64,000 bases of DNA from Verrucomicrobiia bacterium (GTDB lineage: Bacteria > Verrucomicrobiota > Verrucomicrobiia > Limisphaerales > CAIMTB01): contig JAHCBA010000004.1 in NCBI GenBank assembly GCA_019634625.1, positions 124,001-188,000 of the forward strand. Reading direction: 5' to 3'. Position numbers and translations under genes: made by a program. Shown in pieces: positions 1,398 through 28,100 of this stretch. Below the pieces are notes generated by a model. It had not been told where the DNA came from. It saw nothing but the letters and a program-made list of their open reading frames with translations, and made no database searches. How positions within the stretch are numbered: the stretch's first letter is position 1; each line of letters begins with the position of its first letter.

Positions 1398-1523
1398 AGG
1401 GACTCGTACTCAGCCCGAAGGGCGGTACTCGTCCTCGTCCTCGTCCTCGATCCCGCAGACACACCCTTTCGATCCTCGCCTTGCCGCTGGCCCGATGGGT
1501 TCAGGAGGGCGAAGGGGAAGGGC

Positions 1524-1592
1524 GATTACGATTACGATTACGATTACGATTACGATTACGAGTACGAGTACGAGTACGATTACGAGTACGAG
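1524..1592 (+). repeat. GATTAC/GAGTAC hexanucleotide microsatellite
   Basis: About 11.5 units of a 6-bp repeat: a run of GATTAC, then GAGTAC units, then GATTAC and GAGTAC again. Units differ only by T/G at the third position and A/G-type interchange. A second tract of the same two unit types lies at 19594-19674. It is non-coding by context. Confidence 0.95.
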
Positions 1593-6140: not shown

Positions 6141-6200
6141 CCAAATAGCCGGAAACTTCGTGCATATGCACGAAGTTTGAGAGCATTTCGAGCCCGCCGC
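6141..6200 (+). repeat. Solo copy of the TGCATATGCAC module with a 26-bp perfect palindrome
   Basis: Positions 6153-6178 are a perfect 26-bp palindrome centred on TGCATATGCA and flanked by AAACTTCG/CGAAGTTT. The surrounding 60 bases align without gaps to 18361-18420 upstream of the PaaX-like gene (CCAAATnGCC, GAAACTT, core, then CATTTC and AGCCC). It sits between the 3' ends of two convergent genes, so it is not an obvious promoter operator for either. Confidence 0.8.
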
Positions 6201-6220
6201 TCGTCCGTCCAGCCTGCCTG

Positions 6221-6380
6221 GTGCATCCCCAAGTTGTCGGTGAGGAGGCAGCCAATCGGAGGGACGAGCTCCGCGAGTCCTCATCCCAACGCACCCCATC
6301 GTTGCGGCCTCGTGGAACCCGGCCCTCCGAGGCGATGCCTCGCGAAGTTCGCGCCTCGACCCACAACTCCGGGATGCACG
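6221..6380 (+). repeat. Complete ~160-bp imperfect inverted-repeat element (copy 1)
   Basis: The ends are GTGCATCCCCAAGTTGTCGG and, on the other strand, GTGCATCCCGGAGTTGTGGG: 20-bp terminal arms with three mismatches. The interior holds GGAGGGACGAGCTCCGCGAG and GAGGCGATGCCTCGCGAAG. A second complete copy in the opposite orientation lies at 19403-19561. No open frame is carried and no target-site duplication was recognised. The format resembles a MITE or a large REP-type element. Confidence 0.85.
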
Positions 6381-18252: not shown

Positions 18253-18299
18253 ACGCCCCCCTCCCTCCTCCACAACCTCCCCCCTTAAATCACCCTATT

Positions 18300-18540
18300 C
18301 TCCGCACACATGCACGAATTTTACGACCATTTAACAGCCACACCCAAGTCTCCCCGCCCTCCAAATCGCCAGAAACTTTGTGCATAGGCACGATTATCAG
18401 GACCATTTCCAGCCCACCGCCCCGCGCCATAATCGACCCAATCGCCGTGCATGTGCACAGGCTTTTCGGCCTTGAAACGGTTGGCCTCCGTTCCCCTGGA
18501 TCAACGTAACTGTCGTGCATATGCATGAGAATTAAGTCGA
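18300..18540 (+). promoter_or_regulatory. Four-unit array of the TGCATATGCAC module upstream of the PaaX-like gene
   Basis: Four degenerate copies have cores at 18305-18316, 18379-18391, 18447-18458 (GTGCATGTGCAC) and 18515-18526 (GTGCATATGCAT), spaced 76, 67 and 68 bases. In three of four, the core is followed by GA and, 17 bases after the core, by ATTT and then an AGCC. The same order and spacing occur in the solo copy at 6141-6200. The last unit ends about 30 bases before the regulator start. Use as an operator array for autoregulation is an inference. Confidence 0.6.
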
Positions 18541-18571
18541 TTTAGCCGCCGTGCCGGAGCAGGTTCGGTCC

Positions 18572-19369
18572 ATGCACCCGAAGACCGAGGAACTCCTCTA
18601 CATCCTCCTCTGGACCTGCGAATCCCTCTCCCAACCAACCGTCCGCAACCTGACCGAATCCTTCGAAAGCTGGGCCTATCGCAGCGGCCTGCTGCGCCAG
18701 ATCCGCGAACTCGAACACAAGGGCCTCATCGAAAGGACCAGCCCTCCCCCCCAGCGCGGCAAACGCGTGGACCGCCTGGTCCGGTTGACCGAGTCCGGCC
18801 GTCTGCACGCCCTCCATGGACGCGATCCCGAGGCCCGCTGGAACCGCGAATGGGACGGCCAATGGCGCCTGGTGCTCTACGATCTCCCCGCCGTCGATGG
18901 CACCCGCCGCAATCGCGTTCGTAACGCCCTTCGCAGCCGCGGTTTCGGCTGGCTCCAGGATAGCGTCTGGATCTCGCCCGATCCTGTCACCGAGCTCGTT
19001 GCCTCCCTCGACGAAAACCCCTCGGATGTCGAATCCCTCCTCTTCCTCGAAGCCCGCCCGGCCGGCGGCGAATCCGATCGCGACATTGTCGCCGGCGCCT
19101 GGAACTTCGAAGCCATCCACCAGCGCTACACCCGATACCTCAAGGTCCTCGCCCGCCTCCCCGCCAAATGGTCGGGATCGGAATCGGACGCCGAACACCT
19201 CCGGCAATGGCTCGCTCTCGAACGTGCCGCCTGGTCCGAAGCCGTCCGCAGCGACCCCCTGCTGCCCCGACGCCTCTGGCCCGAGGGCTATCCTGCCCCT
19301 CAAGCCCTCCGCCAGCGCCTCGAACGCCTCGCCGTCGCCGGCGAACGCATGCGCTCCTTCCGCCCCTGA
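18572..19369 (+). CDS. PaaX-like transcriptional regulator
   Basis: Predicted DNA-binding regulator of 265 residues from the ATG at 18572; a GTG 21 bases earlier is possible. The N-terminal ~75 residues are a winged helix (LLYILLWTCESLSQPTVRNL, then LIERTSPPP and VRLTESGRLHAL). The central part, WRLVLYDLPAVDGTRRNRVR with LRSRGFGWLQDSVWISP, is the Cas2-like ferredoxin fold of the PaaX family. The C-terminal helical domain matches PaaX_C in length. Classical PaaX represses phenylacetate catabolism, but no paa genes are near, so the ligand and targets are unknown. It is preceded by the four-unit TGCATATGCAC array and followed after 33 bases by an inverted-repeat element. Confidence 0.8.
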   Translation: MHPKTEELLYILLWTCESLSQPTVRNLTESFESWAYRSGLLRQIRELEHKGLIERTSPPPQRGKRVDRLVRLTESGRLHALHGRDPEARWNREWDGQWRLVLYDLPAVDGTRRNRVRNALRSRGFGWLQDSVWISPDPVTELVASLDENPSDVESLLFLEARPAGGESDRDIVAGAWNFEAIHQRYTRYLKVLARLPAKWSGSESDAEHLRQWLALERAAWSEAVRSDPLLPRRLWPEGYPAPQALRQRLERLAVAGERMRSFRP

Positions 19370-19402
19370 GGTTCTGACCGGCAGCCCCGCCCCCCCATTC
19401 CC

Positions 19403-19561
19403 GTGCATCCCGAAGTTGTGGGGCGAGCTGCGGACTTCACCCGGCATCGCTTCGGAGGGCCGGGTTCCACGAGGCCGCAACGGTGTGGAGCGTTGGGCTG
19501 AGGACTCGCGGAGATCGTCCCTCCGATTCGCTGCCTCCTCACCCACAACTCTGGGATGCAC
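19403..19561 (-). repeat. Complete ~160-bp imperfect inverted-repeat element (copy 2)
   Basis: Opposite orientation to the copy at 6221-6380. Read on the - strand the two align end to end without large gaps, with terminal GTGCATCCC arms conserved and the core GGAGGGACGATCTCCGCGAG differing by one base. It begins 33 bases after the PaaX-like stop codon and is followed by a GATTAC tract. Confidence 0.85.
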
Positions 19562-19593
19562 CGCTCCCATTCCGTGAGCGAACCGGGCTGGGC

Positions 19594-19674
19594 GATTACG
19601 AGTACGATTACGATTACGAGTACGATTACGATTACGAGTACGATTACGATTACGATTACGATTACGATTACGAG
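19594..19674 (+). repeat. GATTAC/GAGTAC hexanucleotide microsatellite (second tract)
   Basis: About 13.5 hexamers, mostly GATTAC with interspersed GAGTAC, of the same two types and orientation as 1524-1592. Both tracts are introduced by GGGC and end in GAG. It is not coding. Confidence 0.95.
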
Positions 19675-19800
19675 GGGAACCCAGGGGCATCTCCATGGCG
19701 TCGGAGATGCGTTCGGTCGAGGGATACGACGAGGAGACCGTCGGCAGACGTTTTCGCGTGAGGCATGGCCCCCGCTCCCGCTACGCTTCCCTCCCTCGCC

Positions 19801-21914: not shown

Positions 21915-23509
21915 TGCCCCACTTCCCTCCCCTCCTCCAATCCCTCCCGCTCGCGGCGCTCCTTCTTGCCGTCGTCCCGGCCCCTTCGCCCGCCCATTCA
22001 GACACACCTCGCCCGCCAAACATCCTCATCGCCATTGCCGACGACTGGGGCGCCCATGCCGGCGCCTACGGCACCCGCTGGATCCGCACGCCCGCCTTCG
22101 ACCGCGTCGCACGCGAGGGACTTCTCTTCCGCCACGCCTACACTCCCACCGCCAAGTGCGCCCCCTCCCGCGCCAGCCTCCTCACCGGACGCAACCCCTG
22201 GCAGCTCAAGGCCGCCGCCAATCACGTCCCCTTCTTCCCGCCCGAGTTCAAGACCTGGCCCGAAGCCCTCGCCGAACACGGCTGGTTCGTCGGTCACACC
22301 CAGAAGGGCTGGGGCCCCGGCGTGGCCACCAATTCGCTCGGCCAACCCCGCCGCCTCACCGGATTCGCCTTCAACGCCCGACGCGCCCCACCCCCCGCCA
22401 CCGGCATCGCCCCCGCCGACTACGCCGCCAATTTCGAGGACTTCCTCGAAGCCGCTCCCGACGACCGCCCCTGGTGCTTCTGGTATGGCGCCCTCGAACC
22501 CCATCGCGGCTTCCAGTTCGGCTCCGGCATGGCCCAGGGCGGCAAACGCCTCGAAGACATCGACCGCGTCCCCGGTTACTGGCCCGATCTGCCCACCGTC
22601 CGCCACGACCTCCTCGACTACGCCTTCGAAGTCGAACACTTCGACCGCCACCTCGGACGCATGCTCGACCTCCTCGCCGCCCGTGGTCTCCTCGATACCA
22701 CCCTCGTCCTCGTCACCTCCGACCACGGCCCGCCCTTCCCCCGCCTCAAGGGCAACACCTACGAGGACGCCAACCGCGTTCCCCTCGCCCTCCGCTGGCC
22801 CGACGGCATCCCCCACCCGGGGCGCGTCCTCGACGACACCGTCAGCTTCATCGACCTCGCCCCCACGCTTCTCGAGGTCGCCGGCATACCCTGGGACCGC
22901 TCCGGCCTCGCCCCGTCCCCGGGACGCAGTCTCGTCGGTCTCTTCCGCTCCCCACGCTCCGGTCAGGTCGATCCCCGGCGCGATCACGTGCTCCTCGGTC
23001 GCGAACGCAACGATGTCGGGCGGCCCCGCGATGAAGGCTACCCCGTGCGCGCCATCCTCCACGACCGCATGCTCTACCTCCGCAACTTCCAACCCGGCCG
23101 CTGGCCCGCCGGCAATCCCGAGACCGGCTACCTCGACTGCGATGGCAGTCCGACCAAGACCCTCATCCTCGAATCCCGCCGCGCGGATCCCGACGATCCC
23201 CATTGGGCCCTCTGCTTCGGACACCGCCCCGCCGAGGAACTCTACAACCTCCGCGACGATCCCGACTGCCTCCACAATCTCGCCGGCCTTCCCGCCCACG
23301 CCGCCACCAAGGCCGCCCTCGAAGCCCGCCTTGTCGAAGCCCTGCGCGCGCAGGAAGACCCGCGCATCCTCGGCGACGGCGACATCTTCGACCGCTACCC
23401 CTACGCCCAACCCGCCCAGGCCCACTTTCACGAACGCCTCCTCCGCGGCGAAGACGTCCGCGCCCCATGGGTCCACCCCACCGACTTCGAACCTCTCCCG
23501 GCCCCATAA
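21914..23509 (+). CDS. Secreted sulfatase (heparan N-sulfatase-like, S1 family)
   Basis: Extracytoplasmic sulfatase of 531 residues with signal peptide ([20 protein letters not shown]). Metal-binding DD at 43-44 ([12 protein letters not shown]). The formylglycine site is C82 in [11 protein letters not shown], the canonical CxPSR form. Also present are [11 protein letters not shown] and a C-terminal [13 protein letters not shown] typical of the sulfamidase-like branch. It is translationally coupled to the LysR gene. Residues about 311-417 were copied into a 322-bp fragment 1.7 kb downstream, which is now broken. Confidence 0.93.
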
Positions 23510-24451: not shown

Positions 24452-24541
24452 GATGGCATCGCCGCCGGACCGCATGACACCCCGGCGCCCTGTGGCCAGA
24501 TCGGCCGGCGCATCGACCGACGCTTCCGGCCCACCACCGAA

Positions 24542-24940
24542 AGCTTCATCGACCTCGCCCCCACGCTTCTCGAGGTCGCCGGCATCCCCTGGGACCGCTC
24601 CGGCCTCGCCCCGTCCCCGGGACGCGGTCTCGTCGGTCTCTTCCGCTCCCCACGCTCCGGTCAGGTCGATCCCCGGCGCGATCACGTGCTCCTCGGTCGC
24701 GAACGCAACGATGTCGGGCGGCCCCGCGATGAAGGCTGCCCCGTGCGCGCCATCCTCCACGACCGCATGCTCTACCTCCGCAACCTCCAAACCGGCCGCT
24801 GGCCCGCCGGCAATCCCGAGACCGGCTACCTCGACTGCGATGGCAGTCCGACCAAGACCCTCACCGCCACCTGCGAGGCGGTCCTGGACGGCACCAAAAC
24901 TCCGGGCACCCCGACCACCCTCCGCCGAACGGCATCCTGA
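24542..24940 (+). pseudogene. Truncated duplicate of the upstream sulfatase gene
   Basis: 24542-24863 matches 22844-23165 inside the sulfatase gene without gaps; I count only about five differences over 322 bases. It encodes residues about 311-417 of the parent, beginning [20 protein letters not shown], without the formylglycine site. The frame stays open to a TGA at 24938-24940 but the last 25 codons are unrelated. Neither flank matches the parent gene, and no start or ribosome binding site is evident. After it, 24941-25118 shows no recognisable feature. Confidence 0.85.
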
Positions 24941-25118
24941 CCCTCCCCCAGCGCGAGGTGCCGGGAAGGCTTGGAGGCGGCCTCCCCTCCGCCCTCCCGG
25001 CACCATCCTCCAACGACCCTCAAGTCCCTCAGCACATCCGGCATCGAGGCATTCCGTCCGGCGACGGAGCAGCGGGCTCAAATCCGTACCAATTGTTGAT
25101 CTCCGCCCCCCGGTTCCA

Positions 25119-25184
25119 GATTTCTGATTTCTGATTTCAGGCCTCAGGTTTCAGGTTTCAGGTTTCAGGTTTCAGGTTTCAGGT
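25119..25184. repeat. TTTCAGG heptamer microsatellite abutting the hrpA stop
   Basis: Two TTTCTGA units, then five or more TTTCAGG units with a GCCTCAGG variant. The tract ends 1 base before the hrpA stop codon (- strand), so copy-number changes could alter the gene end. Confidence 0.9.
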
Positions 25185-25185
25185 A

Positions 25186-28100
25186 TCACGCCATCAACCT
25201 CAACCTCTCCCACTGCGCCTCAAGGCGCTTCGCCGAAATCGGCGTCGGCGTTCCCAACTCCTGGGCAAACAGCGACACCCGGAACTCCTCGATCATCCAC
25301 CGGAACGCCTCGAGTTCCCGCCGTTTCTCCTCGGACCATGCCTTGCCCGCGGACGTCCGCCAGGCCGTCGCCCACGGCGTCACCTGCGCCTCCCGTTCCC
25401 GGTCCTTCGCCGGGTTCACCCCGGCCCGTTCGAGGCGCAGCAACAGGGCCTTCAGGTAACGGGGAAAATGACCCAGCCGTTCCAGGGAGACCCGCTCCAG
25501 GAATCGCGCCCCCATCAACTCACCCAACTCCGCCTCACCCACCCGGACCGGACCGCGGGCCGCGGGCTGTGCGGGGATCGCTCTGGCGCCAAGGGCCAGT
25601 TGTCCCAACTGGCTCAAATCCTTCACCACCCGCGCCGCTCCCGGTCGTGGCCCCGCCGCCGCCGCTGACGATTCCCCTCCCATCCGCCGCACGACGTCAC
25701 GACGCAATTCGAGAATCCCGCGCAACCGCTCCATCCATGGCCCCGACAATCCCGTCAACCGTCCCCGGGCCGACGCCACCGCCGCGAGAAACGCCCGCTC
25801 GGTGAGCGCCCCGGACGGGCCCGGTCCGACCACATGCGCCATCAGGTGCCGGTACGCCGTCTCCTCGAGTTCTTCGACAGTCCCGATCGGCGCGTACAAC
25901 GGCCCCACGGCGGTCAATGCCCGCAGATCCTTCCGCAGCCAGGCCACATCCCGACCCAGGGCCAGTTCGATCAGGCGCCACCACCCGGACCCGGTCTTCG
26001 CCTTCGCCTCGGTGGCCGACCGGAACAACCGCACATCGACCGACTCGCCTGCCACCTCGAGCCCCGGCCAGCCGTACTCGGGCAAACCCGGACCCTCCCG
26101 CACCGTCACGCGCTCGGGGAGGTCACCGAACGACCATGTGGTCACCTGGCATCGTTCCCAGCGGGCTGCCGCCGCACGCCACGCGGCATCCCCGGCCGCT
26201 CCCGACGCTGGCACGGCCGGCTTGACCTCCGCCAACTGGCGCCGCACCGCCGCCCAATCCCGCGAAGCCACCAGCGGCTTCTCGTCCGGCCCCACCACCT
26301 CAACCCTCGCCCGCAAGTGCGGTGGAAGCGTGTCCGGCGCCCATGCGTCCGGCGGCACCGGGACGCCATATCGCTCCCGGATGAAGCGCGCCAGGTCATG
26401 GCCCAGGGAAGGTCCCTCGGGCCGGAAATCCCGCGCCATTTCCGCAGCCTTGGGAGCAATCGGCAGCAGGCGTGCCCGAAGCGATTTCGGAAGCGCCCGA
26501 AGCCACTCCTCCGCCTTGGCCTCCCGCAACCCCGGCACCGCCCACTCGAGCATCGCCGGCGACACCGAATCCGCCAGCGTGAACGGCACCCTCACGGTGA
26601 CGCCGTCGTGCTCCTCGCCCGGCGCGTAGGCGTAGCGCAGCGGAACCGGCTGCCCCCCCACCTGCACCGTGTCCGGAAAGGCTTCCCGGTCGTAGGCGGT
26701 CTCCTCGCCCCCCGCCAGGTCGGCCTCGGTCACGCCCAGCGCCTCCTGCCCGGCCGCTCCCCGCTCACCGATCCATCGGTCCAGATCGTCCCGCGACGAC
26801 ATGTTCTCCAACTGCCGCGCGTAGAATGTTTGAAGGGCGCCGTCCACGTCCCCGAGGTCCTGCCGTCGCACCCGCGTGCGCCAGTTCTCGACCGCTTCGC
26901 GCACCTTGCGGTTGTGCTCGATGAACCGGTACCGCGCCGGCCATTCCCGCGGACGTTCGTCCGTCCGGGTCCAGTTTCCCAACCGGTCGCGCCAGGCCGC
27001 CTTGCCAGCCCGATCGCCCCGCGCCGGTCCCTCGGTCTCCCCCGAACCGCGCGGGCGCGGCAGGAGTTCCTCCGCCACCAGCGCCGAACGGATGAAGATT
27101 TCCGTGGCCGCCACCGGGTCGATCGGTCCGTACGCCACCCACCGGCGCCGCACCTCCATGCCGTACAACGTCGTGATCTCGTCCGCCCCAACCCGGCCCG
27201 CCTCGGCGCTCCAACGCGGATCCCGATGGGTGACCTCGCATAGGTGCGGCGCCACGGCGACAATCCATTCCGGATCGATCCCCGCCACGGTCCGCGCATA
27301 GACTTGGGAAGTCTCGACAATCTCGCCCGCCACCACCCAGGCAGGCTGGGCGCTCCGGACCCGCGTTGCCCGGTCGTCGTCCGGGCGCGCCCCGCCCTTC
27401 CCCCGGCGTTCAGGCTTCTCGCCCCGCTCGAACAGGGCCGAACCGGGAAACAGGTGGACGATGCGGTTCCCCGCCCCCTTGTAGCGGTTCCGCTCCTCCC
27501 GGCGCCCAACATGCGCCAGCAATCCCGAGAGCACCGCGCGATGCACGGCCTCGTAGGCGGCATTGCTCTCGTTCAGGCGCACCGTTCCCAGTTCCTCGAG
27601 GGCGTCCCACAACTGCCCGTGCAAGTCCTGCCACTCCCGCATCCGCACGTAGGAAAGGAAATTCTCCCGGCAGAACTTCCGCCGCTGCCCCTGCGTCCGC
27701 AGCGCCTCCCAACGCTCGTGCACCGCCTCCCAAAGGTTGAGCAGGGTCAGGAAATCCGACCGCGGATGCACATGACGCCGATGCGCCGCCTCCGCCTCCG
27801 CCTGCCGTTCCATCGGCCGCTCGCGCGGATCCTGGATGCTCAGGCCCGACGCAATGATCAGCAGCTCCCGCGTCGCATGCTCGCGTTGCGACTCGAGCAG
27901 CATCCGGCCCAGCGTCGGATCGATCGGCAGCCGCGCCAGATCGCGCCCCAGCGGCGTCAGCTCGCGCGAGGAATCCAACGCCCCCAACTCCTCCAGCAGG
28001 GCATACCCCGACCGGATCGCCGCCGGTGTCGGCGGATCGAGAAAGGGAAAGGTCTCGATATCGCCCAGATGGAAGGCCTTCATCCGCAGGATCACCTCCG

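Follow-up and report, generated by a model that had tools for sequence, protein, structure and literature searches.

A PaaX-like, Cas2-fold gene and its cognate palindromes: a candidate REP/RAYT-like repeat system in Verrucomicrobiota

The window, a 64,000-nucleotide stretch of a Verrucomicrobiia genome, contains a PaaX-like gene preceded by a run of short TGCATATGCAC palindromes. Across the phylum, relatives of this gene are bracketed by palindromes whose cores match at the two ends of a unit, further copies are spread through the genomes concerned, and four sister species lack gene and palindromes at the sites compared. On balance, these data suggest that the palindrome and the PaaX-like gene constitute a two-part repeat system resembling REP/RAYT, in which the protein would mobilise the palindrome. 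An earlier note on this DNA had proposed a larger unit, in which three types of repeat move or are maintained together with a Cas2-fold regulator. The pairing of palindrome and gene survives our analysis; the inverted-repeat element, a MITE, and the GATTAC tract drop out as parts.

Direct reading of the sequence recovered every feature previously noted at 18300-19674, 6141-6380 and 1335-1922 (Table 1). The unit in the window is worn: the four-unit array described 5' of the gene does comprise four copies, all of them degenerate, and no recognisable 3' palindrome of the gene is present in the window. The solo palindrome, with 12/17 symmetric arm positions, is one of the sites counted genome-wide below. 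No Rfam families were found in the window. Elsewhere in it, a 300-bp duplicate (22837-23136 and 24535-24834) is 98% identical, and the heptamer GGTTTCA occurs in eleven tandem copies (25112-25188).

Table 1. Palindromes, PaaX-like gene and neighboring repeats in the window
Feature	Position	Strand	Remarks
Region holding the palindrome-PaaX unit	18253-19800	no strand	between propeller gene and Gfo/Idh/MocA gene
Palindrome copy 1, remnant	18304-18332	no strand	core with 3 mismatches, right arm kept; read from sequence
Palindrome copy 2, degenerate	18363-18408	no strand	core 18380-18391, 1 mismatch; AAAT...ATTT ends kept
Palindrome copy 3, degenerate	18430-18475	no strand	core 18447-18458, 1 mismatch
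Palindrome copy 4, degenerate	18498-18543	no strand	core 18515-18526, 1 mismatch; ends 28 bp before ATG
PaaX-like gene, 265 aa	18572-19369	+	Pfam PaaX_M, E=3.7e-18
MITE, outside unit	19403-19561	+	terminal inverted repeats GTGCATCCC..GGGATGCAC
GATTAC/GAGTAC hexamer tract, outside unit	19593-19674	+	
Solo palindrome	6143-6188	no strand	exact core GTGCATATGCAC at 6160-6171; 46-bp quasi-palindrome
Second complete MITE copy, outside unit	6221-6379	-	89% alike to 19403-19561
GATTAC tract	1523-1591		

The PaaX-like protein matches Pfam PaaX_M, which denotes a Cas2-like domain, at 65.9 bits (gathering score 24), and PaaX_C at 21.7 bits, just below the cut-off of 22. Its predicted layout is a central Cas2-like domain (PaaX_M) and a C-terminal PaaX_C-like region, with an N-terminal winged-helix-like region that we take from the architecture of the family. 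NCBIfam TIGR02277 scores 63 bits, short of its equivalog cut-off of 264.55, and NCBIfam cas2 weakly matches two proteins (E=4.5e-4 and 8.4e-4), the second of which is the window protein. An aspartate, D104, is invariant in a 17-member alignment and presumably, from what is known of the family, occupies the position of the Cas2 catalytic Asp. The two solved PaaX-type sequences (PDB 8a39, 3kfw) show no Asp at this position. PaaX relatives that have no palindromes retain D104 as well, so the residue is not diagnostic. A single-sequence structure prediction (mean pLDDT 36) was left out of the argument. No phenylacetate catabolic operon was found among the flanking genes searched, which encode a propeller-domain protein, a Gfo/Idh/MocA oxidoreductase and, further on, a sulfatase, and no match emerged when the gene was sought in viruses, plasmids and phages. 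The second PaaX_M gene of the genome falls in a more remote subfamily and lacks nearby palindromes; it lies (L117 6677-7477) about 1.4 kb from a GATTAC tract (L117 5192-5245), probably by chance.

Within the order, window-subfamily PaaX genes usually have palindromes a few to about 60 bp from each end. When the window-like loci of the order were scored as units, 13/16 had a strong palindrome 5' or 3' of the gene, and most had one at each end; the low-scoring loci (G062, G046a and G051) appear degenerate by eye. In a second, independent phylum-wide set, some members of which are remote (E about 1e-32), a palindrome score of at least 10 was reached at 43% of 60 gene flanks, as against 0/118 control windows. 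Moreover, the 5' and 3' half-sites are far more alike within units than between them (identity 0.94 vs 0.58, 22 units; 0/20,000 permutations as high), in tests that take the best palindrome near the gene, which favors a find; in the phylum-wide set, the 118 control windows were treated alike. The cores themselves vary between units, and include CATATG, CACGTG, CAGCTG, CACCTG and CGATCG among others; one genome (G028) has four paralogues, and each of these shows a distinct core, present 5' and 3' alike. Of the units with an asymmetric core, 5 carry it in inverted orientation at their two ends and 3 in direct orientation. The suggestion of a link between the palindromic module and the Cas2-fold gene is supported by these data, as relatives of the gene throughout the phylum lie between cognate palindromes. 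RAYT transposase genes are flanked by two REPs (PMC2817692), and the same arrangement is found for the PaaX-like family, the window contributing degenerate 5' copies only. Synteny between species is seen for some units (L165/L173, L208/L209, genus g156), and paralogues have diverged, so the gene itself rarely moves; such synteny would be expected if the gene is resident and does not jump.

In the 6.74-Mb genome of the window (G000), the core GTGCATATGCAC occurs at 122 sites with at most one mismatch, compared with 1 for the reversed control, and forms the middle of an inverted repeat of about 46 bp, AAAT-n13-GTGCATATGCAC-n13-ATTT. All loop-less palindromes detected in 1.23 Mb of sampled sequence, at the length and strictness scanned, belong to the TGCATATGCAC family. 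The copies differ in their arms and are thus not simple clones. Near-perfect arms (at least 15/17) are seen in 7/20 singletons, against 0.68 expected. Arm symmetry beyond the shared consensus also occurs in G273 (P=0.0005) and G208/G138 (P=0.025) and is not clear in G101, in G040 or in the pooled arrays of G000; as it is uneven among genomes, we do not use it as a general argument. Tandem arrays have periods near 67, 103, 114 and 123 bp, and their spacers are partly repeated and recur between arrays, rather than being unique and uniform as in a CRISPR array. One five-unit array with a 114-bp period (L063 17911-18434; G000 C1:117911-118434) lies in a stretch of about 3.7 kb in which no genes were called. 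No convincing target-site duplication was detected at palindrome ends (P 0.05-0.96; G000 borderline, P=0.05), which fits REPs but would also fit any non-insertional origin. A GTDB-wide pattern scan returned 12 matches, one stretch each and no multi-copy genome, which by estimate is near chance.

The tie between palindrome and gene extends to copy number, as palindromes are multi-copy where a gene with the same core is present and rare elsewhere. Beside the sites in G000, genomes with a cognate gene, mostly MAGs, hold 71 copies (G046), 38 (G115), 27 (G092), 21 (G028 and G273 each), 18 (G101), 13 (G058), 10 (G031 and G208 each) and 9-10 (G138), with 6, 4 and 4 in three further genomes and 1 in a genome that is 73% complete (G076); 12 control genomes without the gene hold 0-1. 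In G302 and G430, only 2 copies are present beyond the flanking pair. Gene-bearing genomes thus show the many intergenic copies of a REP/RAYT-type dispersal. The exception, G040, has 23 palindromes and no PaaX-like gene; its palindromes are carried inside a dispersed repeat of about 200 bp (L284-L288, L305-L311), which can spread on its own. In G273 (L237-L241), palindrome doublets occur at fixed spacings of 65 bp (3 loci) and 36 bp (2 loci, inverted), and longer shared repeats contain the 36-bp pair as well as two of the doublets spaced at 65 bp.

Four congeners served for comparison with closely related species. The exact 14-base core is found 68 times in G000 and 0 times in 57 other genomes, comprising four congeners and 53 others. 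At the syntenic site, the flanking genes are adjacent in 4/4 congeners, separated by a gene-free spacer of roughly 75-210 bp with no PaaX gene. At orthologous loci, the palindrome is absent beside metF (4/4), a nucleotidyltransferase gene (4/4) and the C9 gene (3/3), i.e. in 11/11 comparisons. Gene and palindrome were probably gained in this species, as one gain is simpler than four losses, with breakpoints that are inexact because the intergenic DNA is too diverged.

If the palindrome and the PaaX-like gene do form a REP/RAYT-like system, a dimer of the protein would bind the palindrome core via its winged helices, and may repress its own gene through the 5' copy. The protein would also cause the palindrome to be copied into new intergenic sites, as is thought for RAYT and REP, with the Cas2-like domain, perhaps together with hairpin-processing host nucleases, as the candidate source of chemistry. 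Decayed copies and tandem arrays would then be later products. We know of no transposase chemistry for PaaX or Cas2-fold proteins, which counts against this reading, as do the lack of a convincing target-site duplication, the differing arms of the copies, the synteny of some units, the G040 palindromes without a gene and the few copies in G302 and G430. We propose more tentatively that these genes represent a bacterial repeat system of a new class, whose palindromes might be made and spread by a PaaX-like protein of winged-helix/Cas2 fold, and not by an HUH transposase, each gene lineage having a core of its own.

The principal alternative is that the protein regulates transcription as E. coli PaaX does, and that the palindromes are its operators, one autoregulatory and many serving a regulon. 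The homology to PaaX favors this, as does the palindrome usually found just upstream of the gene, and palindromic sites suit a dimeric winged-helix protein. The distribution of the sites points elsewhere. By our gene calls, nearly all are intergenic, with one inside a called gene. Among 51 sites from four genomes, a few of them copies that flank the gene in G101 and G273, 16% lie within 60 bp of a start, compared with 17% of random positions, and 35% are no more than 60 bp from a stop codon, compared with 18%. The sites are thus enriched near stops and not at gene starts, which argues against a plain operator set. Moreover, a second palindrome usually lies downstream of the gene, the protein scores far below the cut-off for the PaaX repressor, and the abundance of exact cores here, with none in four congeners, would demand that a regulon be built up very fast. 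We consider this explanation unlikely, though worth carrying forward.

The bias toward 3' ends would suit a protein that organises the chromosome or binds palindromes at 3' ends, as SlmA, Noc and MatP bind their own sites, the sites themselves having multiplied in some other way, for instance through replication slippage or by hitch-hiking on other repeats. The intergenic position of the sites, the G040 palindromes within a larger repeat and the tandem arrays of G000 are consistent with this, but it leaves the palindromes on both sides of the gene unexplained, and we regard it as distinctly improbable. Less probable still, with only a slight chance of being correct, is that these are classical REPs moved by an undetected RAYT elsewhere in the genome, the PaaX-like gene being a bystander. 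REPs, which are defined with a one-sided GTAG/CGTC tag beside the hairpin, are indeed present in a verrucomicrobium, Opitutus terrae (PMC3733652). The palindromes described here are symmetric, no such tag was seen on inspecting copies, and palindromes with cognate cores bracket the PaaX-like gene across the phylum.

The inverted-repeat element, 159 bp long, is an ordinary MITE. At least 40 copies occur genome-wide at 87-100% identity; in the 1.23 Mb sampled, 39 full copies were counted. Like other MITEs, it has terminal inverted repeats, dispersed copies and target-site duplications; no parent transposase was found in the 1.23 Mb. The duplications are short direct repeats of about 9 bp, offset about 2 bp from the ends, that match at 7/7 positions in 16/39 full copies (mean identity 0.69 vs 0.30 permuted). 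At the window copy 3' of the gene, CCCATTC is repeated at 19394-19400 and 19566-19572. A 1,476-bp pair considered as the parent IS has no transposase recognisable by eye. All 6 GATTAC-type tracts in the 1.23 Mb lie within 500 bp of MITE fragments (1.43 expected), a separate association; complete MITEs are not enriched near the tracts in this sample, the window cases being 1340-1939 and 19403-19674. As the genome has only 2 PaaX_M genes, MITEs and tracts are plentiful where the gene is absent. That palindrome, inverted-repeat element and GATTAC tract moved or were kept together with the gene, as their proximity at 18300-19674, and that of two of them at 6141-6380, had suggested, is effectively ruled out by target-site duplications of the MITE's own and by chance-level placement in the 1.23 Mb, where palindrome loci lie within 500 bp of a complete MITE twice (2.19 expected) and of a GATTAC tract 0 times (0.5 expected), independently of both.

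The only dedicated REP proteins we know of are HUH transposases, and REP-like palindromes without a known mobiliser are common. A dedicated protein of PaaX/Cas2 fold, paired with palindromes of its own and found widely in one phylum, would be a second solution beside HUH transposases. It would also assign a role to a PaaX subfamily currently labelled a repressor, and would tie a Cas2-like fold to palindrome DNA outside CRISPR. Among the open-licence PMC full texts searched, none names both PaaX and Cas2, and none joins PaaX with 'repetitive' and 'transposable'. The many cognate pairs of protein and palindrome are available for direct comparison of binding.

Three known systems invite comparison. 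With CRISPR Cas2, the protein shares a weak profile match and the equivalent Asp, but its Cas2-like domain is joined to N- and C-terminal regions and the array spacers are non-unique. To the phenylacetate repressor PaaX (TIGR02277; PDB 8a39, related 3kfw) it is related by sequence, with PaaX_M and PaaX_C regions in common, but it scores far below equivalog level and retains the Asp in the Cas2-like motif, and its gene, by contrast, is bracketed by multi-copy palindromes. REP/RAYT resembles the system in having a gene between two palindrome copies, many dispersed intergenic copies, a unit that is often vertically inherited, clusters of fixed spacing (as in G273) and no target-site duplication found (PMC2817692, PMC3733652). 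It differs in that the palindromes here are symmetric, have at most a small loop and lack the one-sided GTAG/CGTC tag, and in that the gene they flank encodes a PaaX-like protein unrelated to the HUH/Y1 tyrosine transposase.
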